This document shows positions 3,533 to 28,045 of a stretch of 39,566 nucleotides of DNA, piece by piece; the stretch's first letter is position 1; each line of letters starts with the position of its first letter. The stretch lies in the NCBI GenBank assembly GCA_944384725.1, contig CALWUJ010000016.1, positions 1-39,566 of the forward strand. Direction: 5' to 3'. Under the pieces are notes generated by a model, which saw nothing but the letters and a program-made list of their open reading frames with translations, was not told where the DNA came from and searched no databases. Position numbers and translations under genes: made by a program. The stretch is from an uncultured Agathobaculum sp. Lineage in GTDB: Bacteria; Bacillota; Clostridia; Oscillospirales; Butyricicoccaceae.

Positions 3533-4531
3533 TCAATACTCACAAGTGAGCGTCATCTTCTTGCTGTCGCTTTTGATTTTTCTCTGGACACCAAGCACTA
3601 TAAAGTCGGAATTCATGTCTCCTGCCACTATCTTCACCTTGTCCCCTTTTCGAATCCAAGGGATGTCCACAGCTTCCACCTCGAATTTCTTTTTAGGCGC
3701 ACCGTTTTCGGAAATTTCGGTATTCGCCTCTTTCTTTGCCGCATCCAGACTTTTGTCCGAATCCTTTTGCCGTATCTTCTGTAAAGTGCCGTATTCGTTC
3801 GTTTTTCCGGTCACTACCGCAGCGGTATTGCTCGCCCCACCGTCATCTGCTGCGCCCATGATCTTGATTTTTGTGATAACGCCCGACATAGAAACGCGGC
3901 TATTTGTCGATATGACCCGTTCATTTTGATGCAGCGTATACACGGTATCGTTCTGGCCAACCGGCGCAATATCGATAATATCCTCACGCGACCGCATAAC
4001 GAACCGGGTGCCTTTTTGCCTTTTGACTTCTCCCAACAAATCATTCAGAAAAATATCCGAAAGCGTTCCCTGCAGCGTCAGCTTGTCGTGTGTAATGCTG
4101 TCATAGGTGTAATTTTGTTTTACGCCCCAATCCGCGCAGAGCGACGAAGTAACCTGTGATGTGCTTTGCCCTTTTGCAAAGAATTTGCTTTCCTCAGATT
4201 CTTGAAAGAAAATCAGATTATCATAGCAAGTTGCCGAAAGGATCTTTTCCAGATCGCTGGAATATTCAATTTCCCAAATGAAGCCGCGGAACACCTCTTT
4301 CGGACTGTTGCCATCATTGGCATACAGGTACATCCGATCCATAACGTCGATTGCTTCATTGAGATATGCGGACCCGTTCGGGGCATTAAAAAAGGACACC
4401 GTCACGCGCTGCGCGACCTGTCCTTCTTCCTCTGCTGTCTCCACGTCAGTCATGATGCTGGTAATGTTGTACCGCGCACCCGACTTTGTCACAATCACTG
4501 CGCTGTATTCAGGATTATCCCTACTCGCCAT
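3533..4531 (-). CDS. XkdQ-like tail hub protein (gpD/late control D family)
   Basis: This 332-aa protein matches the XkdQ/late-control-D type hub. A beta-rich N-terminus is followed by a domain with TLQGTLSDIFLNDLLGEV and a C-terminal region with DIPWIRKGDKVKI, typical of hub proteins that bind the tube end and tail spike. The ATG at 4531 follows GGCGGTGG. In complete phages this gene follows the tape measure and the LysM protein XkdP. Both are missing here, and an intrinsic terminator lies just upstream at 4556-4587. Expression of the tail segment would therefore depend on read-through. Confidence 0.85.
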   Translation of the reverse strand: MASRDNPEYSAVIVTKSGARYNITSIMTDVETAEEEGQVAQRVTVSFFNAPNGSAYLNEAIDVMDRMYLYANDGNSPKEVFRGFIWEIEYSSDLEKILSATCYDNLIFFQESEESKFFAKGQSTSQVTSSLCADWGVKQNYTYDSITHDKLTLQGTLSDIFLNDLLGEVKRQKGTRFVMRSREDIIDIAPVGQNDTVYTLHQNERVISTNSRVSMSGVITKIKIMGAADDGGASNTAAVVTGKTNEYGTLQKIRQKDSDKSLDAAKKEANTEISENGAPKKKFEVEAVDIPWIRKGDKVKIVAGDMNSDFIVLGVQRKIKSDSKKMTLTCEY

Positions 4532-7272: not shown

Positions 7273-8700
7273 TCACCTCTTCCAATACGATTGTTGCGCC
7301 GGCACTGTGGCTTTTGGTACAATCACCTGCTGTTTCCCGGTCATGCGCTCCGCAATGCCGGTCGTGGCGTCGGGCGCGTCATCATGCGCGTTCTTGCCCT
7401 CTTTTTGGTAGGACTGCATTGCTTTTGCGTATTCCGGCCACCGGTCACGCCAATTTGCCGGAAAATAAATATGATCCTGCACCCACGTTGCGTTGGTGAG
7501 GATCCGTGCGATCTTGTTTTCACTTTGGTGGAACCACTCGATGCGGCAGCGGTTGGTGCCCAGCGCGCGCAGCTCCCGCTCCACGTTGCGGGCAAAGCCC
7601 CGTCCGCCGTTGTTGCTCTCGATGCGGGCCACATTGCAACCGTGCGCCGCAAGCCGCCGCGCTGTCTCCGGCTCGGTGACCTCCATCGGCGCCTTGGTGT
7701 AGTACACGTCCAGCACATAGGCCTCATGGTTGTACTCGCCGTAGATGATCGAGCACAGAAAGTCGCTGCCCTGATCGGCGGTGTCCGTGTAGTTGCTGAT
7801 ACGGGTGAAAAGTGGCTTGCCGCTCGTGTCCCGCGGAATATCGGCGTAGGTCTTGAAGCTGCTGTACAGCCTGCCCTTGAGGTCGATCGGCTCCTGCTGG
7901 TAGTTGGCGGACGCGATCTCCTCGGACATGGTGCGCACCTTGTCGTCGTAGTCCGCCCGGGTCAGCACCGCGTCGCACAGCATCGTGCCGTCATCCTGCA
8001 GCGCCTTCATCGTGATGTGCTCCGCGTCCGGCCAATGCGCCAGCGCGCGACCTGCCAGGTCGTTGGTCGCCCAGCGGGTCATAATGATGATGATTTTATA
8101 GCCGGTCTCGGTACGCGACAGCATGGTGTCGGTGAACCACTGCCACTGCTTTTCGAGCGTATTCTCGTTGAATGCTTCCTCGGCCTTTTTGATCAGATCG
8201 TCGATGATCAGCTTGCGCGCGCCGAAGCCGGTCGCTGTGCCGCCGGGAGAGGTCGCCAGATAACTCGCATACTGCCCTTCAAGCGCCCACTTGCCAGCCG
8301 CCGCCTCGCCGTACTTAATGCGGGTGTGAGGAAAAATATCCGAGAACACGATGCGGTTCGGGTCGAACGCTTCCTCGGCAATGCCGTCGCGCACCGAGCG
8401 GGCGAAGGTGGTGGACAATGTCTCGTTGTAGCTGCCGGTCATGATCTGTTCGCTGGGGTCGCGCCCAAACAGCCACTGAGACAACAAAACCGCCGTGCGG
8501 CTCTTGCCATGACGCGGCGGCATATTGACGACCAGCACTTTGCGATCGCTCTCGCAGAACGCCTGCAAGCGGGTGCAAAGCTCCTTCAGATACGGCCGAT
8601 CTTCCCGGTAGAAGTCCGGTGCCATCAGCTTGCAGTACGACCAGAACTCACGCCGGGCAAGCTCCATCCGAGCCGCGCGCCGGATCGTCGGATCAACCAT
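7273..8700 (-). CDS. terL: Terminase large subunit (packaging ATPase/nuclease)
   Basis: This 475-aa protein has an N-terminal ATPase with a Walker A-like loop PPRHGKSRT (residues 61-69), Walker B-type KLIIDDLI (about 163-170) and coupling motif IIIIMTRW. The C-terminal RNase H-like nuclease has acidic residues in TADQGSD, IESNNGGRGF and the final HDDAPDA. It would translocate and cut phage DNA together with TerS and the portal. The start overlaps the TerS end by 8 bp. Codon use is more GC-rich than in the neighbouring tail genes. All key motifs are present. Confidence 0.95.
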   Translation of the reverse strand: MVDPTIRRAARMELARREFWSYCKLMAPDFYREDRPYLKELCTRLQAFCESDRKVLVVNMPPRHGKSRTAVLLSQWLFGRDPSEQIMTGSYNETLSTTFARSVRDGIAEEAFDPNRIVFSDIFPHTRIKYGEAAAGKWALEGQYASYLATSPGGTATGFGARKLIIDDLIKKAEEAFNENTLEKQWQWFTDTMLSRTETGYKIIIIMTRWATNDLAGRALAHWPDAEHITMKALQDDGTMLCDAVLTRADYDDKVRTMSEEIASANYQQEPIDLKGRLYSSFKTYADIPRDTSGKPLFTRISNYTDTADQGSDFLCSIIYGEYNHEAYVLDVYYTKAPMEVTEPETARRLAAHGCNVARIESNNGGRGFARNVERELRALGTNRCRIEWFHQSENKIARILTNATWVQDHIYFPANWRDRWPEYAKAMQSYQKEGKNAHDDAPDATTGIAERMTGKQQVIVPKATVPAQQSYWKR

Positions 8701-9166
8701 CCGATCCCGCCAGCTTCCGCAGCTCCTCGGTCGTCAGTCCGGCAAGCGGGTTGACATCCACGCTGCCCGAATGCTCGAGCTGCTGCTTATCCCGCCACCG
8801 ATCAGGGCGGCGGTTCTTGAGCCAGAAGATCTGCGCGGTCACATCCGGCGGAACGTGCTTGACCGTCTGCGTGGTTTTGACCGACTTTTTCCCGTTTTCC
8901 TTGCTGACCTCAACACGCTCTTCCGTGTATTCATAGCCGAGCGCACGCTTGAGCAGCGCGTTCTCGACCTCGATGTCCACGACCTCCTTGCCCCTTTTTA
9001 GGGCCTCGGAAATCTCAGGATACTTGTTCTTCCAGTCGTACAGCGTCGCTGCTGTAATGCCGATCTTCGCGGCAAGCTGCTCATCCGTCATCCCGTCGCG
9101 CGCCCACGCCTCCAGGCGGGTGATCCCGTCCGGTGTGAGCCATTCTTGATATTTGCCCTTTGCCAT
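8693..9166 (-). CDS. terS: Terminase small subunit
   Basis: This 157-aa protein has an N-terminal helix-turn-helix (about residues 26-50, with MTDEQLAAKIGITAATLYDW) that should recognise the packaging site. A charged coiled region and a C-terminal segment that would contact TerL follow. It lies immediately upstream of and overlaps terL. The ATG at 9166 is preceded by GAAAGGAG. Assignment is secure from domain and position. Confidence 0.88.
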   Translation of the reverse strand: MAKGKYQEWLTPDGITRLEAWARDGMTDEQLAAKIGITAATLYDWKNKYPEISEALKRGKEVVDIEVENALLKRALGYEYTEERVEVSKENGKKSVKTTQTVKHVPPDVTAQIFWLKNRRPDRWRDKQQLEHSGSVDVNPLAGLTTEELRKLAGSDG

Positions 9167-9186
9167 GGGGTCACTCTCCTTTCGGG

Positions 9187-9218
9187 CAAAAGAAAACCGC
9201 CTACAAGGTAGACGGTTT
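9187..9218 (-). terminator. Terminator of the two-gene nuclease module
   Basis: On the minus strand, stem arms with AAACCG and CGGTTT (one internal mismatch) are followed by TTTTCTTTT. It lies 7 bp after the stop of the nuclease-like gene and isolates that module from the terminase operon. Confidence 0.8.
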
Positions 9219-9224
9219 CAGCTA

Positions 9225-10271
9225 TTATCCTCCTAAAACATGAAGGTCTCGTAAATTGCTTGTTGCATTCGTGCACACTTCTATATATTTACGTTGTAAA
9301 AACCCAATAAAATTATCGTTGTTAGATAACAATTCAACGATTTCCTGTGTCGCAATACAGATAATCACTTGTTTGTGCCACAAAAAAAGCTCATGGCATA
9401 TCTGCTGGAATGTATCTGGCGTAGGTTTTTTACTTACAAAAACACCAAAGGAACATCCGTTTCTACTCATAATCTCTGATAGTTTTGAAATATATCCATT
9501 TTGGGGTGTACCATTTTCATTTTTACATTCCATATAAAAATATGAACCTATTTCGTCAAGAAAACTGCCTTTGAAGCATCTTTTTACTGCCACAAAGCCG
9601 TCAATCTGATTTAATTCGGTTCTAAAATCTCCGGTTGCAGAAAAACATGTGCATTGGTTAAAAATATCTACCATTAGCTGTTCTAAAAATTTTCCTCGCT
9701 CTGTATTGGTATCATAATGTCGACTATCAATCGTGTTTGCCCTTTCTAATAGTTCATCAACACAGTCTGTCGCAGGAGCATAAAAGTCTTCAAGTTCCAC
9801 CACTCCATGATCCCATGCGTACTGTAGAGAATCCGGCCGGACAGCATCCGCTGATTCCCTGCTACGCGACAAATCAAACCGATGCTGTCCTTCCACAAAA
9901 GGGGCATTTTCTACTATTTCAAACCGCACTTCGATATCTTGTGTACGATCAAAGTCATCTTTTGAGACTTCCTCATCACACCGCACACAATACTCAATAT
10001 TTTTTATATCTCCTACAGAAGCAATTTTTTTAATGATATGTCCACATTCCGGACAACACAAAACAAAATACTTTTTCAAAAACCCGGTTTTTACACATGC
10101 CGCTAAAAAGTCCGCGCTCTTTTCATAGCTGCAATTTAGATGAACTGCCATACGCGATATGGAAATATTTTTTCTAGCTTCACTTGACAAGCTTTCAAAA
10201 TATTGGTCTGCTCTATCCAAAAATTCTTCAGGAAATGCATCCTTGAGCATCAATAATTGAGAATAAAACAT
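9225..10271 (-). CDS. Putative wHTH-zinc ribbon-PD-(D/E)XK nuclease (accessory module gene 2)
   Basis: This 348-aa protein has three visible parts. The first is a winged-helix-like N-terminus (about 30-70, ISISRMAVHLNCSYEKSADF). The second is a zinc ribbon with C73/C76 and C95/C98. The third is a C-terminal restriction-endonuclease-like fold with E197 in GKFLEQLM, D224 in NQIDGF and E248-x-K250 in YMECKN. This pattern fits a Mrr-type PD-(D/E)XK active site. A helical tail with VIICIATQEIVELL follows, as in many such enzymes. The ATG at 10271 has GAGGAGG nine bases upstream and overlaps the partner gene by 44 bp, so translation is coupled. The DNA is AT-rich compared with the terminase genes, which suggests recent acquisition. 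A role in DNA cleavage or phage exclusion is inferred. I do not recognise the exact family. Confidence 0.65.
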   Translation of the reverse strand: MFYSQLLMLKDAFPEEFLDRADQYFESLSSEARKNISISRMAVHLNCSYEKSADFLAACVKTGFLKKYFVLCCPECGHIIKKIASVGDIKNIEYCVRCDEEVSKDDFDRTQDIEVRFEIVENAPFVEGQHRFDLSRSRESADAVRPDSLQYAWDHGVVELEDFYAPATDCVDELLERANTIDSRHYDTNTERGKFLEQLMVDIFNQCTCFSATGDFRTELNQIDGFVAVKRCFKGSFLDEIGSYFYMECKNENGTPQNGYISKLSEIMSRNGCSFGVFVSKKPTPDTFQQICHELFLWHKQVIICIATQEIVELLSNNDNFIGFLQRKYIEVCTNATSNLRDLHVLGG

Positions 10272-11484
10272 TTTGAATATCCTCCTCAGCAGTATACTCT
10301 TTGAAACTCAAATAGCATTTCCCTTTTTTCTCTGAAATGCGTACAGTAAATGTTTCAGAACTATAATATTTACGATTTCGCCGCTTCCACTTTAGTGTTA
10401 ACCCATCGCACATTTGATCATTCTCGATCATTCTTTTATTATCAAAGAAAACTTCTTTGCTTTGTAGTGGTCCAAAATCTCCTCCTGCTGTTTGATCAAC
10501 ATGAGATTCTTCTGCATCTGTAGCGCATAATTTAATTGGATAAGCCTCTCGATTGCGAGTAAAAATATTTTTATCTGGCCAATTGATTGAAATATATTTC
10601 TCTAAAAGATTGCGAATATCACTATCTAAATTTGCACTTTGACTGCCCGGAATTGCACAAATATTCCCGATGAGCTGTTTTATGTCTTCGACAGCAGCAT
10701 TATTCTCGTTAATAATTTGTTGTATTTCAGGTGGAGTATCAGTAAATGATTTCAGGAGCCTATAGAAGATTTTCTTTAGAAAATATGTTTGCGCGGGTGA
10801 TTTGTCTTCCTCCACTTCAAAAATCTTCTTCACCCGTGCTTCTGCCGTCCTTACAGGTTTATCCAACGACATCGGATACTGCATTTTTCCTTCAATACTC
10901 TGAGTTTCCGGATTATAATCATATAAATTTGACCTTGGCTTATATCTGACAATATACCATCCGCCGTCAATGAAGAAATCAAAAATAACAGGAAATTCGA
11001 TGTCTCTGGCCTGTAATTTTCTTTTGTCAATATATGTGGCCATGCTGCAACAATAAAGTGTTACTACACGCTTCCCTCGCATATTCAAAATACGATATTT
11101 AATCAGTCTCACTTTTTCATCATATTTTGAGTTTATTAAATGCCCTGTAGACTCTTGATCAACAAAAGTATCCAAATATTTTTTTAAACTTTCCTCATCC
11201 GAAAAAAGCATTTCAATATTTGGCTTAAAGCTGCATTTATGAAGAACGATTTCCTTAATACCCTCACGGGCAACATCATCTATCCACTCAGCAACTAATT
11301 CAGAATTATTTTCATTTTCATTCCCAAATGCAAACACCGCTTCAAGCAGTTTTGCTTTAGTGTTCTCTTTGATAGCGCTATCAGTATCAACATTAACGTG
11401 ATTGCTTTTTGCAAACGCACGCATAGGCGGTATAGTAAGGAACTCTTCTTCCGGATTACGGAAAATGTGAGCTATGTTATCCAT
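10228..11484 (-). CDS. Unknown protein, accessory module gene 1
   Basis: This 418-aa protein starts at the ATG at 11484, which has AGGAGG eight bases upstream (an in-frame TTG at 11508 lacks a site). I recognise no domain. The sequence looks like a real alpha/beta protein with a FPVIFDFFIDGGWYIVRYKP strand region near residue 170-190 and a basic WKRRNRKYYSS segment near the C-terminus, before a final beta strand group. No ATPase, nuclease or membrane motif is visible. It is the first gene of a two-gene unit with its own promoter, SOS box and terminator. It shares 44 bp with the nuclease-like gene, so the two products probably work together. A sensor or specificity subunit is possible but unproven. 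Confidence 0.6.
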   Translation of the reverse strand: MDNIAHIFRNPEEEFLTIPPMRAFAKSNHVNVDTDSAIKENTKAKLLEAVFAFGNENENNSELVAEWIDDVAREGIKEIVLHKCSFKPNIEMLFSDEESLKKYLDTFVDQESTGHLINSKYDEKVRLIKYRILNMRGKRVVTLYCCSMATYIDKRKLQARDIEFPVIFDFFIDGGWYIVRYKPRSNLYDYNPETQSIEGKMQYPMSLDKPVRTAEARVKKIFEVEEDKSPAQTYFLKKIFYRLLKSFTDTPPEIQQIINENNAAVEDIKQLIGNICAIPGSQSANLDSDIRNLLEKYISINWPDKNIFTRNREAYPIKLCATDAEESHVDQTAGGDFGPLQSKEVFFDNKRMIENDQMCDGLTLKWKRRNRKYYSSETFTVRISEKKGKCYLSFKEYTAEEDIQNVLFSIIDAQGCIS

Positions 11485-11558
11485 ATTCTTTCCTCCTCTT
11501 TCCTCCAATATACGACATTTTCAATTAAAAGTAAATATTGGAATTTCAAGGAGATTAT

Positions 11559-11572
11559 AGAACATTTGTTCG
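11559..11572 (-). promoter_or_regulatory. LexA (SOS) box before the two-gene module
   Basis: The minus strand reads CGAACAAATGTTCT. The established Gram-positive LexA/DinR consensus is CGAACRNRYGTTYG, and this matches 13 of 14 positions. It sits just downstream of the -10 hexamer at 11578-11583, so LexA bound here should block transcription start. Confidence 0.75.
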
Positions 11573-11577
11573 TCTTA

Positions 11578-11606
11578 AGAATAAGCCATTACCCCAGATT
11601 TGTCAA
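11578..11606 (-). promoter_or_regulatory. Promoter of the two-gene module
   Basis: On the minus strand TTGACA (11606-11601) is separated by 17 bp from TATTCT (11583-11578). A second -10-like TATAAT lies at 11559-11554, downstream of the SOS box. The transcript would have a leader of about 90 nt before the ATG at 11484. Confidence 0.7.
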
Positions 11607-11611
11607 GATGC

Positions 11612-11643
11612 AAAAAACACCCTCATCACGAGAGTGCTTTCTG
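11612..11643 (-). terminator. Terminator after the late regulator
   Basis: On the minus strand an imperfect hairpin with arms CACTCTC and GAGGGTG is followed by TTTTTTGC. It stops transcription coming from 12243-11839 before the nuclease module. It lies immediately upstream of that module's own promoter. Confidence 0.7.
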
Positions 11644-11677
11644 AAGAATAGGAGCAAACTTCAAATGACTATCTTAG

Positions 11678-11724
11678 TTGTAGAGGTCGGATTTGAACCA
11701 ACGACCTTCCGCTTGACGTGCGGA
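11678..11724 (-). pseudogene. 3' half of a tRNA (fragment)
   Basis: On the minus strand there is an anticodon-type arm (5-bp stem TCCGC/GCGGA, 7-nt loop ACGTCAA), a 5-nt variable region AGGTC, a T-arm with the loop GGTTCAAATCC, and a 3' acceptor strand CTCTACA. There is no complementary TGTAGAG acceptor strand and no D-arm within 100 bp upstream. Position 33 would be C, whereas functional tRNAs have U. It is therefore a remnant. Such 3' tRNA ends are typical scars of integrase attachment sites. Confidence 0.65.
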
Positions 11725-11838
11725 TGCCCTTGCTGCCCGCCCCGCGGGTTGCAGGGCGGGTGCGTGAAAGAGAGATAATGCAGACCTCGGTTTCATCCTG
11801 CATTTTCACAATGCCATCATACCACAGCCTAACAGGAA

Positions 11839-12243
11839 CTAACAGGGCCTATCCAAAATCTCCTGCACCTGCTCCAACGCGCGAACATGCAAACGGCGCA
11901 CCCACCGCCACGAGTATTGCATCTGCACGGCGACTTCTTCCCACGTCTTATCGTTGACGTAATACTCGGTCAGCAGCGTCGCCAGCGTGTTATCCTCAAC
12001 CTGTCCGATCACCTGCAAAATTTCCGCGCGAACCTGTTCCAGCTTCTCGATCTGCCGGTCGGCCGCAAGGCTTACCTCCGCGTAAGCCGCGAGCTTATCC
12101 CCCGGCTCCCCGCCGGAAACGCGCTCGCCCAGTCCTGCCGTGCTGGACACCGCACGCGCATACGCCCGCTGCTTACTGTCCTCCAGCGCACTGAGCCGCA
12201 GGCGCAGCTTGCGCGCCCGCCCCAACCATTCTTTTGCTGTCAC
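11839..12243 (-). CDS. DUF1492/RinA-like late transcription regulator
   Basis: This 134-aa protein starts at the GTG at 12243. GGAGG lies seven bases before this GTG but only one base before the ATG at 12249, so the GTG is preferred. The N-terminus has a coiled region. The C-terminal half has a sigma-70 region 4-like helix-turn-helix (TLLTEYYVNDKTWEEVAVQM and WRWVRRLHVRAL). This is the layout of the DUF1492 and ArpU/RinA-like families, which activate phage late genes. It stands upstream of the terminase genes, separated from them by the accessory module. Confidence 0.75.
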   Translation of the reverse strand: MTAKEWLGRARKLRLRLSALEDSKQRAYARAVSSTAGLGERVSGGEPGDKLAAYAEVSLAADRQIEKLEQVRAEILQVIGQVEDNTLATLLTEYYVNDKTWEEVAVQMQYSWRWVRRLHVRALEQVQEILDRPC

Positions 12244-12357
12244 TACCATACCTCCATTTCAAATAACGCACAACCTCAGGTGCATATTCAGTCAAGGGAA
12301 ATTCCTCCTGTGCATGCCGTATCTCCGCTGCAATCTCATCTTTTTGGTTTTCGCCAT
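12173..12357 (-). pseudogene. Small phage ORF split by a frameshift in an A-tract
   Basis: An ATG at 12357 has a good AGGAG seven bases upstream and begins MAKTKK. It then hits a stop after 21 codons. Shifting by -1 at the five-A run (about 12342) opens a frame that reads KDEIAAEIRHAQEEF and then EYAPEVVRYLKWRYG, which is far more protein-like. One extra A would give a 61-aa protein that ends inside the regulator gene. This could be a true frameshift mutation, a sequencing error in a homopolymer, or programmed slippage. The function is unknown. Confidence 0.45.
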
Positions 12358-22882: not shown

Positions 22883-23446
22883 TTGACAGATTCTCGTAAA
22901 AAGCTTCTCCAACTGATTTATGAGCACGATCAGACAGAGGGCGGCCCTCTTCAAATTGGTGTTGACGGCAGTGATATAGGTTATGACCGCTTGACACTTC
23001 GAAATGATGTTTCTTATCTGAAGCATCATGACTTCGTTTGCGAACCAATACCTATCGCACAAGCTTACTGCCTCATGCTCACCGAAAAAGGCGAGCTGTT
23101 TGTTGAAAGTGACTTTCAGCGTCCGTCTGCTCCTCAGGCTAATTTTAATTTCGCCGGCGCAACGATCCACAATGCAACCATTGGTAACGAAAACACTGTC
23201 GGCTCCATGGTGTACAATTCCACATCTGCCCTTTCTGAATTAGAAAGCGCAATCAACCGCCAACCTTTAGAGGAGCAAGCGGCTCTTAACGAGATGCTTG
23301 ATATCCTCCGGGATATCCAACGCACTGAGAAGCCCCTCGAGAAATCCCGCCTCACTCGTTTCTACGAGCTTGCGAAAAAGAGTTCTGACCTGCTCCTTCC
23401 TATCGGAAAGTTCCTGTTTGAATTCGTCTTCGCTCCGCGCGGATGA
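22883..23446 (+). CDS. Winged-helix protein of unknown function, opposite to early operon
   Basis: This 187-aa protein starts at the TTG at 22883, with GGAGGTGA upstream. The N-terminal 75 residues look like a winged helix (LTLRNDVSYLKHHDFV, then YCLMLTEKGELFVE). A beta-type linker follows with ATIHNATIGNENTV. The C-terminal half is helical and ends in a hydrophobic LLLPIGKFLFEFVF. Similar TIxNxxIGxxN linkers occur in proteins of uncertain role in Firmicutes. It is expressed against the early operon and its last 180 bp overlap a convergent gene. It could be a lysogenic-state gene. Confidence 0.6.
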   Translation: MTDSRKKLLQLIYEHDQTEGGPLQIGVDGSDIGYDRLTLRNDVSYLKHHDFVCEPIPIAQAYCLMLTEKGELFVESDFQRPSAPQANFNFAGATIHNATIGNENTVGSMVYNSTSALSELESAINRQPLEEQAALNEMLDILRDIQRTEKPLEKSRLTRFYELAKKSSDLLLPIGKFLFEFVFAPRG

Positions 23447-23926: not shown

Positions 23927-24574
23927 ATGAATGTAGGCGATCGTATTAAACTGCGACGCAAGGAAATCGGAATGTCGCAGACTGATCTCGCTAATGAAGT
24001 TGGCTCTACCAAGCAAAATATCTATAAATATGAAAATGGCATTATCACGAATATTCCTTCAGATAAAATCGAAGCAATATCTGCCGCTCTCTGCACCACC
24101 CCCGCCTATCTGATGGGCTGGGACGATACAGCAGGCGTACATGCTTCCGATAACGACGCTGGTCTTTGTTATGTCCAGTATGCTGGACCGGTTGCCGCGC
24201 ACTTCAACGCGACGCCCACCGAAGAACATGAGTTCCGGTGCATGCCTTCAGAATGGCTTGGCCACCGGCGGCCGGAAGACTTTTTTGTTGCATCAGTGGA
24301 CGGCAACTCCATGTACCCTCATTTTCATGACGGCGACGAGATCCTGTGTCTGCGCTGTTCTGATATGGGCCATTCCGGCCGTGTTGGCATCATCGTATTC
24401 GGTAATGACGAGGCCACGCTCAAGCGGATCGACTACCATCCCGGCGAAGACTGGATCGACCTCGTACCGGTCAACCCGGAATATCAGACCAAGCGCATCG
24501 AAGGCGCCGATCTAGAGCAGTGCCGGGTTGTCGGACGAGTCATCAAGGTGATCCGCACGGTGGATGAGGCATAA
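23927..24574 (+). CDS. CI-like repressor with LexA-type S24 self-cleavage domain
   Basis: This 215-aa protein has an N-terminal XRE helix-turn-helix (about 6-60, MSQTDLANEVGSTKQNIYKY). A linker carries the A86-G87 cleavage-type pair. The C-terminal S24 peptidase has the nucleophile S128 in DGNSMYPHF and the general base K166 in EATLKRI. The 38-residue Ser-Lys spacing is as in LexA. It should hold lysogeny and self-cleave with RecA during DNA damage. AAAGGAGG precedes the ATG at 23927. It is intact, so the switch may still work in this otherwise deleted prophage. Confidence 0.92.
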   Translation: MNVGDRIKLRRKEIGMSQTDLANEVGSTKQNIYKYENGIITNIPSDKIEAISAALCTTPAYLMGWDDTAGVHASDNDAGLCYVQYAGPVAAHFNATPTEEHEFRCMPSEWLGHRRPEDFFVASVDGNSMYPHFHDGDEILCLRCSDMGHSGRVGIIVFGNDEATLKRIDYHPGEDWIDLVPVNPEYQTKRIEGADLEQCRVVGRVIKVIRTVDEA

Positions 24575-24709
24575 AATACGTCCATGGCCACATCGAAATG
24601 AATATTTGAACCAATTTCAGACTGCATAGAATAATGAAACTCTCCCAAAGGACTACGTCACTGAGATGAAATACATTACTCTCATTTCAACAAAAAGGAA
24701 GTGGTATCG

Positions 24710-25657
24710 ATGAAACTATTTATCAGTCATTCAGAAAAAGACAAAAATGCTGCAAAAGCCTTAGTGAAATTGCTATATGGGTTACGTATGCGAGAAGCAG
24801 ATATGTTTTGCAGCTCGACGCCTGAACTATCCATTCCAATCAAGCAAGATATTTATCAGTATTTACGACATGAATTGGATACCGAATCGTTATTTGTTGT
24901 ATTTTTGTTATCCGGTAATTATTATTCAAGCGCCGCCTGCTTAAATGAGATGGGGGCTGCATGGATAAAACAACACGATTATATCAGCATATTACTCCCA
25001 AAATTCCATTTCGAAGACATTAAAGGGGCAATCAACGCTAACGGTATCGCAATCAGCTTTGATGATGATATATCGATGCTCAAAGACAGATTAAATCAAC
25101 TACGGAAGTATTGTGAGCAGACATTTGCTTTAGAAGCAATAAATGACACACATTGGGAAAATATTCGTGATGAATTTATTCAAGATGTGCGCAAGGCTTG
25201 TTTTGATGGTCAGATTGATCTCACCCATAGTCTTGGTGTTTGTGTAGACGATGTATTAAACGACGGTTGTGCGATCGATTATTCTAATAGGAGTAAAACG
25301 GAAGTTACGGCCACTATTGACTTTAGCAAAACTTCAACTAAAATGTGTTCTTTGGTGATATCTCCTGAGGAACATGATTGGCGATACTTTGTTCAATCGG
25401 ACAGAAGCCTTTCTTTCTCTGCCAGCACCACCGGTGATATACGAGAATTTATCTTGGAGTTTAATATTCCAAGCAGCAAAGAACCTCGTCTGCAAAAGCA
25501 TTTTTCATATCCCTTCGACAACATAAAAGTTCGATTAACTGATTTTAATCTGCACTATACTAAGTGGAGTAATGTCAAAGAGATCAACTTTCTTGTCGTT
25601 AATCGTGGAAATGTAAATTCGGGAAATCTAACAATCAAAGATATGCAAATTATCTAA
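24710..25657 (+). CDS. TIR-domain protein with C-terminal beta-rich domain
   Basis: The product is 315 aa from the ATG at 24710, which has AAGGA ten bases upstream. The N-terminal TIR domain (about 1-150) begins KLFISHSEKDK and shows FCSSTPE and LSGNYYSSAACLNEMGAAW. E80 sits where bacterial TIR NADases have the catalytic Glu. The C-terminal half (about 170-315) is rich in beta strands and looks like a sandwich or jelly-roll. A role in NAD cleavage and phage exclusion is inferred. The DNA is more AT-rich than the CI gene. It is alone, with no Thoeris ThsA-like partner. It lies in the lysogenic-expression zone after CI, as cargo genes often do. No convincing promoter was found in 24575-24709. 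Confidence 0.75.
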   Translation: MKLFISHSEKDKNAAKALVKLLYGLRMREADMFCSSTPELSIPIKQDIYQYLRHELDTESLFVVFLLSGNYYSSAACLNEMGAAWIKQHDYISILLPKFHFEDIKGAINANGIAISFDDDISMLKDRLNQLRKYCEQTFALEAINDTHWENIRDEFIQDVRKACFDGQIDLTHSLGVCVDDVLNDGCAIDYSNRSKTEVTATIDFSKTSTKMCSLVISPEEHDWRYFVQSDRSLSFSASTTGDIREFILEFNIPSSKEPRLQKHFSYPFDNIKVRLTDFNLHYTKWSNVKEINFLVVNRGNVNSGNLTIKDMQII

Positions 25658-26910: not shown

Positions 26911-26992
26911 GCAGGGGCAGAAAACTTTGCGCGTGTTCTGCCCTTTCATTATAGCATATATTTTTGTGTGTTGTAAATGGGAGGGATACCAA

Positions 26993-28045
26993 ATGGCGGT
27001 ACACAAAATGACCGACGGCAGTGGTCGCTGGTACGCGTCCTTCTACTTCAAGGACAGCTTTGGCACCACGCACCGCAAAAAGAAAGAAGGCTTTGCCACC
27101 CGCCGGGAAGCAAAAGCCTTCGAGGACAATTTCGTTAAGCAGCACAGCGGCAGCTGCAGCATGACGTTTCAGGCATTATACGAACAGTACATGCAGTCAA
27201 GCACCGCTCGCCTGCGTGAAAGCACAATTCGCAAAAAGCAGCATATTTTCCGCGATAAGATCTTGCCGACGTTCGGTGATCTTCCAGTCAGTTCGATCAC
27301 GCCACTGATGATTCACGAATGGCAGACCGCGATGATGCAAACCGAATACAGCCCTACCTATCTGCGGACGATAAACAACGATCTTGCCGCTGTGTTTAAT
27401 TTCGCGGAGAAATATTATGGCCTCGACCGTAACCCATGCCGCAACGAGCCTCGCATCGGCAAGCGGGACGCAAAAGTCATGCAGTTCTGGACGGTTGACC
27501 AGTACCGTCAGGTCATTGAATGTGTTACGGATCCCGAACTGCACGCCATCTATCAAATTCTGTTTTGGACCGGCATGCGTCGCGGTGAATGCCTTGCGCT
27601 GACAATCGAAGACGTTGATTTCACCTCCAAAACCATTTCGATCAACAAAACCCGCGACCGGCGCGGCGGCCGGGATGTCATCACGCCGCCCAAGACAGAA
27701 AACAGCGTGCGTACCGTGACCATACCCGACCAGCTTTGCGCCGAACTACAGACATACATCAAGCGGCTTTACCAGCCCGCCCGTACTGATCTGCTGTTTC
27801 ATCGTTCCCCCAGCAATGTCTCGACCTCGCTGGGCAAGGCCGCAGAACATGCAGGAGTGCCGCGTATCCGCGTCCACGATCTTCGGCATAGCCATGCCTC
27901 CATGCTGATTGAGCTAGGCTTCTCGCCGCTCCTGATCGCCGAGCGGCTGGGTCATGACAGCGTAGACACGACACTCCGCATCTATTCCCACCTGTACCCC
28001 AACAAGCAGGCCGATGTCGCCGCAAAGCTGAGCGCACTCGCCTGA
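26993..28045 (+). CDS. int: Tyrosine recombinase integrase
   Basis: The product is 350 aa from the ATG at 26993, with GGGAGGG upstream. The N-terminal AP2-like arm-binding segment has GRWYASFYFKDSFG. A SAM-like core-binding domain (about 55-155) follows. The catalytic domain has Arg in GMRRGECLAL, the HxxR box in HDLRHSHASM, His in LGHDSVDTT and the Tyr in IYSHLY. All catalytic positions are present, so it should be active. It lies at the right end of the prophage next to the inferred attachment site. Confidence 0.93.
   Translation: MAVHKMTDGSGRWYASFYFKDSFGTTHRKKKEGFATRREAKAFEDNFVKQHSGSCSMTFQALYEQYMQSSTARLRESTIRKKQHIFRDKILPTFGDLPVSSITPLMIHEWQTAMMQTEYSPTYLRTINNDLAAVFNFAEKYYGLDRNPCRNEPRIGKRDAKVMQFWTVDQYRQVIECVTDPELHAIYQILFWTGMRRGECLALTIEDVDFTSKTISINKTRDRRGGRDVITPPKTENSVRTVTIPDQLCAELQTYIKRLYQPARTDLLFHRSPSNVSTSLGKAAEHAGVPRIRVHDLRHSHASMLIELGFSPLLIAERLGHDSVDTTLRIYSHLYPNKQADVAAKLSALA

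Follow-up and report, generated by a model that had tools for sequence, protein, structure and literature searches.

A candidate Rex-type phage-exclusion cassette with an exchangeable effector in a Clostridia prophage

RexA and RexB of phage lambda form a two-gene exclusion system, and by crystal structure RexA has the RdgC fold (PMC11077077). RexAB of a P. putida prophage pairs a RexA-like DNA-binding protein with a membrane effector that damages membranes (PMC12894663), and a relation of CENP-N/L orthologues to RdgC has been noted (PMC4080450). Two adjacent genes were analyzed here in a stretch of 39,566 nucleotides (the window; positions 1 to 39,566 of contig CALWUJ010000016.1, assembly GCA_944384725.1) from an uncultured Agathobaculum sp. 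Gene 1 (10228..11484; this and all other features of the unit lie on the minus strand) encodes a putative sensor of 418 amino acids with an RdgC-like fold in its model, and gene 2 (9225..10271) encodes a protein of 348 amino acids, by its predicted structure an adapter followed by a nuclease effector. We consider it rather probable that this prophage pair works as a two-component cassette of the Rex type for phage exclusion (abortive infection), in which the effector can be exchanged and which here stands under a host-type LexA box.

The pair resembles lambda RexA/RexB and Rex-like systems (those of actinophages and P. putida RexAB) in consisting of two adjacent phage-borne genes, the first for a protein of RdgC-type fold (here in a model) and the second for an effector, which in some relatives is of membrane type. 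It differs in that no sequence similarity between Rex and the pair was found, in that its effector in the window is a nuclease, and in that every gene-2 protein has an adapter of winged helix-turn-helix (wHTH) and zinc ribbon, for which RexB (144 amino acids) has no room. RexB reportedly has four transmembrane (TM) segments, whereas one or two are predicted in the gene-2 proteins of four relatives (L008, L011, L012 and L023) and none in that of the window. Lambda Rex is transcribed from PRM (PMC11077077), whereas a LexA box lies at the window pair. Like RexAB, the window pair consists of adjacent genes on a prophage; because the sequence test for RexA and the test for a four-helix RexB both failed, it was not filed as RexAB. 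We take Staphylococcus RexAB to be of the AddAB type. It was rejected as a relative, being a DNA-repair complex by its literature entry and having the name alone in common. Among the literature matches listed, no titles or abstract openings described a nuclease-bearing Rex pair.

Predicted folds of the two proteins

Gene 1 starts at an ATG behind GAGGAGG, with an in-frame TTG at 11508. The best PDB matches of its predicted structure were RdgC, a recombination-associated DNA-binding ring protein (PF04381), relative to which the model has additional helices at its N-terminus and is extended in its middle helical part; the fold relation to the eukaryotic kinetochore proteins CENP-L/CENP-N (Iml3/Chl4) is a distant one. 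Lambda RexA was not among the structure matches shown for the model, an absence that was not taken as evidence. No usable match was obtained for gene 1 in Pfam, PADLOC, PHROGs, NCBIfam or PDB sequences. PADLOC returned 0 families, although its RexA model detects lambda RexA at 9e-110, and the RdgC model PF04381 matched 0/3 genomes (the own genome carrying gene 1 included) with a positive E. coli control. Profile alignment by hhalign gave a score of 14.6 for gene 1 against RdgC and 17.4 against RexA, each inside the range of 20 column-shuffled gene-1 profiles (12.6-18.3 and 11.1-23.3, respectively). Since RexA against RdgC, which are reported fold relatives, likewise gave no signal (probability 0.1%), the hhalign result was used neither for nor against a relationship. 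A preliminary description of the locus, made from its sequence, had found gene 1 unlike anything known; that stands for sequence families but not for the model, with RdgC as its best matches. Apart from the missing sequence match, gene 1 differs from RdgC in always standing with an effector partner.

The gene-2 model was composed of a wHTH, a zinc ribbon and a PD-(D/E)XK nuclease. The adapter half (9978..10271) contains wHTH-like residues 1-68 and the zinc-ribbon cysteines 73, 76, 95 and 98, and the PD-(D/E)XK-like domain (about residues 187-336; 9264..9713) contains E197, D224, E248 and K250, which were invariant in 10/10 aligned gene-2 proteins (structure alignments comprised 14 rows for gene 1 and 10 for gene 2, phage records L002-L004 being excluded). 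Model and invariant residues agree with the wHTH, zinc-ribbon and PD-(D/E)XK residues read from gene 2 beforehand, and structure prediction found the nuclease fold. A plain transcription regulator was rejected in view of the invariant nuclease residues. In its fold and invariant E/D/E/K, gene 2 is like PD-(D/E)XK nucleases (Mrr/DUF2130-like; Nt.BspD6I, FokI; phrog_6350); it differs from them in that the nuclease is fused to the wHTH-zinc-ribbon adapter and is swappable for membrane segments. The match to phrog_6350 (function unknown) had E 1.9e-10, and gene 2 of L006 matched DUF2130 at 9.5e-5, below the family cut-off. A weak resemblance of the wHTH-zinc-ribbon half (e.g., L012 3284-4066) to DUF5939 (PF19363) was seen in three members (E 0.0045, 0.029 and 0.091, all below cut-off).

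An optional insert with a constant gene pair and swapped effectors

The pair is flanked by the late transcription regulator (phrog_36; 11839-12249) on one side and by the terminase small subunit (phrog_309; 8693-9166) on the other. It sits in a 2.4-kb AT-rich insert in the late region of a Clostridia prophage, recognized as a prophage by an integrase (26927-28045) and an S24-type repressor (23927-24574). G+C in 1-kb windows was 0.35-0.42 in the unit and 0.51-0.62 in both flanks. An empty site was found in a sister phage contig (L061) without the insert between regulator and terminase block: its terminase block matched window 7347-9196 at 89%, its regulator matched 11905-12242 at 78%, and the regulator-terminase spacing was about 300 bp (314 by match ends), compared with a window spacing of 2,673 bp. 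The drop in G+C and the empty site bear out the AT-rich, self-contained unit of the preliminary description. Two hairpins were found by folding, neither having been picked up by pattern scan: the module terminator (9193..9219; fold z -3.6), at which identity with the empty site restarts (9196), and a terminator on the late-regulator side (11611..11643; fold z -4.7), just past which lies the left edge of the insert. Because the latter has a counterpart in the empty site, the upstream terminator is the phage's own, and the downstream one alone seems to have arrived with the insert. Both had been assigned to the unit; the upstream hairpin does fold but is not part of the insert. Beside the empty site, L061 carries a tRNA-like gene with an odd anticodon (4338-4413). 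Window positions about 11680-11730 are similar to its 3' half and were not called by ARAGORN, which found no tRNA in the window.

Relatives were drawn from phage records, IMG/VR viral contigs and GTDB genome scans, with titles naming Clostridia or genera that we assign to Clostridia. Twenty distinct loci were counted after removal of L007 (the module of L006), L013/L014 (contigs of L009/L010), L025 (within L016), L027 (L015), L020 (gene-1 pieces and upstream DNA as in L021), L070 (the L012 contig) and L001/L005/L026 (the window). Gene 2 was directly downstream of gene 1 in 20/20 loci, most scans having been led by gene 1, so that a gene 2 standing alone was searched for less; the overlaps were 29, 41, 44 or 47 bp (starts set at the conserved Met). 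The window's two open reading frames overlap by 44 bp (10228..10271), as first described, and the co-occurrence on which that description had been staked is borne out by the sample. Since the pair is kept in 20 loci, a chance open reading frame or assembly artefact was rejected.

Both window proteins matched the same three of 50,697 phage records (L002-L004). There the two genes carry hypothetical annotations, share a 44-bp overlap and are placed between large terminase and portal; in L002 the preceding gene is an unnamed gene after the small terminase instead of the large terminase. In L006 a pair sharing 60-61% protein identity stands ahead of the same large-terminase type. A search with the terminase small subunit confirmed 586 relatives, and the best 80 loci were fetched; the pair was present in one of these 80 (L070, on the same contig as L012). 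No plasmid match was obtained for either gene, and single-protein viral scans gave no matches. Among genomes of the same family the own genome alone matched (1/87 for each gene), and the order and class samples gave the own genome and one other each (2/394 and 2/391), those two repeating L016 and L015.

The constancy of the overlapping pair and the toxic look of its effectors would suit a toxin-antitoxin or addiction pair in which gene 1 neutralizes gene 2. We regard this as very improbable: gene 1 is large and conserved, and in L021 (7001-8230; L020 alike) and L024 (7001-8408) an interrupted gene 1 is followed by an open gene 2 that overlaps its last piece, the opposite of what is expected of an antitoxin if gene 2 is made. 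Taken as an observation in its own right, an interrupted gene 1 beside an open gene 2 hints that gene 2 may do no harm when gene 1 is lacking.

Relatives conserve gene 2 over its first ~130 residues, which comprise the wHTH-like part and the zinc ribbon, and the four zinc-ribbon cysteines were retained in 20/20 loci. PD-(D/E)XK-type NQID...ECKNE was present in 15/20 gene-2 proteins. In 4/20 (L008, L011, L012 and L023) the nuclease gives way to a membrane segment, with one or two helices by simple hydropathy. In L028 (7187-8457) gene 2 stops after the adapter and is followed by a separate gene of 248 amino acids, for which one TM helix was predicted and neither Pfam nor PADLOC gave a match. Because the nuclease half is thus absent from 5/20 loci, with a membrane segment in four and a membrane gene of its own in one, the earlier term "nuclease module", true of the other 15, is too narrow. 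A gene-1 tree was built from 18 rows, excluding L021 and L024 for their interrupted gene 1; on it the TM label takes two changes, well-supported branches force two, and L008, of the TM type, clusters with seven nuclease types at 100/99. Modular immune systems typically combine a constant sensor side with effectors that are swapped. The constancy of gene 1 and the wHTH-zinc-ribbon half while the effector swaps suggests a modular anti-phage suicide system.

In five loci (the window, L008, L011, L012 and L023) a phrog_36 late regulator precedes the pair, and terminase genes of three family types come after it (phrog_309 in the window and L012, phrog_3717/2/51 in L008, phrog_1889 in L011). Known defence genes were found in two of the four non-phage neighbourhoods scanned (L015, L016, L017 and L022): L015 adjoins an AbiGii homologue and a KAP NTPase (PDC-S49), and L017 adjoins type I restriction R and S genes. 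The neighbourhoods of L016 (TPR and AAA_16 protein, integrase) and L022 (recombinase, AAA-ATPase) contained no named defence family. An RdgC-like recombination factor with a nuclease for the phage's own replication, recombination or packaging would fit the fold of the gene-1 model, the 430 phage records that contain an RdgC relative and the terminase genes adjoining the pair. Such a role in phage DNA metabolism is nevertheless quite unlikely, given that the pair is optional (the empty site; a single one of the best 80 related terminase loci), that membrane segments replace the nuclease in four loci and that non-phage copies exist.

Promoter, LexA box and further prophage genes

A promoter-like TTGACA-17-TATTCT was located by pattern scan at 11578..11606, as first described; promoter-like sites in 8600-12300 were not clearly in excess of shuffles (10 against a mean of 6.6, sd 2.7). 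A candidate LexA box, CGAACAAATGTTCT (11559..11572), was identified by scanning with the LexA consensus CGAACRNRYGTTYG, and an alternative -10, TATAAT (11554..11559), abuts it as in L008 and L011. The 13/14 match to LexA noted earlier holds in that CGAACAAATGTTCT is the sole window site within one mismatch of CGAACRNRYGTTYG and has a host-type core, but not for the looser pattern, which is at chance. GAACAAATGTTC with up to one mismatch gave one window site, and at least one site was also found in 24/100 shuffles.

Because the loose consensus was at chance level in the window, the host genome was examined. The exact GAACAAATGTTC core occurred in 6/37 GAACN4GTTC sites (about 0.3 by our estimate for a random core), one of which precedes a RarA-like gene. 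The LexA-like gene of the host has the box CGAACGTATGTTCC, and recA has CGAACAAATTTTCG upstream, its dyad off by one base. Host boxes precede the LexA-like gene, the RarA-like gene, a serine recombinase and a tyrosine integrase (named by eye from translations). The window by itself is no proof of the box, and the host genome supports it. A box of the host LexA type is present at the promoter of the window pair. As a separate observation, the LexA-type boxes directly upstream of the serine recombinase and tyrosine integrase (L046/L048; host contigs C11/C15) make SOS control of mobile elements possible.

Among relatives, perfect GAACN4GTTC dyads lie upstream of gene 1 between -35- and -10-like hexamers in L008 and L011 (in L011 between TTGCCA and TATAAT), and L019 has a relaxed dyad there. 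Random 250-bp stretches drawn from the respective locus scored as high in 0.7% of cases for the window, 1% for L019, 3.7% for L008 and 35% for L011, a good control for the first three and a weak one for L011. Nine distinct loci (L002-L004, L006, L008-L012) contained three distinct perfect dyads in total, two of which are the gene-1 dyads. Conservation of the box, on which the preliminary description had also relied, is thus partial: with a box at the gene-1 promoter in 4/20 distinct loci and none in 16/20, the LexA box is an optional feature of the pair. An SOS-timed self-destruction or competitor weapon, in which the nuclease would degrade the host chromosome or rival DNA upon prophage induction and would not act against incoming phage, could draw on the host-type core of the promoter box and on the five loci in which the pair stands behind the late regulator. 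It appears unlikely in view of the 16 loci that lack a box, the copies adjoining AbiGii or type I restriction genes and an exchange of effectors as in immune systems.

Elsewhere in the prophage, a TIR-domain gene of low G+C beside the repressor (24701-25657, plus strand; PF13676 E 1.5e-6, just over cut-off) is a further candidate defence gene. Just ahead of the repressor region, 22883-23446 (plus strand) encodes a protein of 187 amino acids with no Pfam match at E 0.01.

Proposed mechanism and significance

From the computed features (optional insert, constant pair, folds, swapped effectors, an SOS box of host type and, next to some copies, defence genes) we infer a mechanism that includes DNA binding, contact between gene 1 and gene 2, activation, cutting, LexA binding and phage exclusion. 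LexA would hold expression of the cassette low in the window prophage, and DNA damage or DNA intermediates of an invading phage would raise its transcription. The RdgC/RexA-fold protein of gene 1 would then act on DNA as a sensor and engage the wHTH-zinc-ribbon adapter of gene 2, freeing the effector. The PD-(D/E)XK nuclease would cut phage and/or host DNA and so halt the infection, a part that would fall to a membrane segment or separate membrane protein in relatives. Of the three functions proposed at first, phage exclusion fits best because of the defence-gene neighbours and the likeness to RexAB, and competitor killing and altruistic death fit less well. Two counts speak against the LexA box: with two mismatches allowed, sites for CGAACRNRYGTTYG were at chance in the window (15 vs 14.8), and GAACN4GTTC overall was not enriched in the host genome (37 sites vs 42 for a reversed-pattern control). 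Against the proposed mechanism, the literature on Rex reports that DNA binding is not strictly needed for lambda exclusion and that exclusion is maybe a by-product, and RexA-RexB contact was not seen in P. putida (PMC12894663).

On a wider view, for which we judge the evidence evenly balanced, the pair represents an undescribed family of phage and chromosomal immunity in Clostridia, with a DNA-clamp sensor of the RdgC/RexA/CENP-L-N fold, a wHTH-zinc-ribbon adapter and interchangeable killers (DNA nuclease, membrane segment or separate membrane protein), wired in some prophages to the host LexA so that DNA damage arms the system. How lambda Rex senses phage and activates its effector is a long-standing open question, which the 2024 structure paper does not settle either. 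A Rex-like system with a nuclease or membrane effector would split sensing from killing and would open that question to tests in which DNA cleavage is read out. If the immunity family is real, lambda Rex would become one branch of a broader modular class, a DNA-binding fold of recombination and kinetochore proteins would be tied to phage immunity, and an SOS-armed design would be added to prophage defence.
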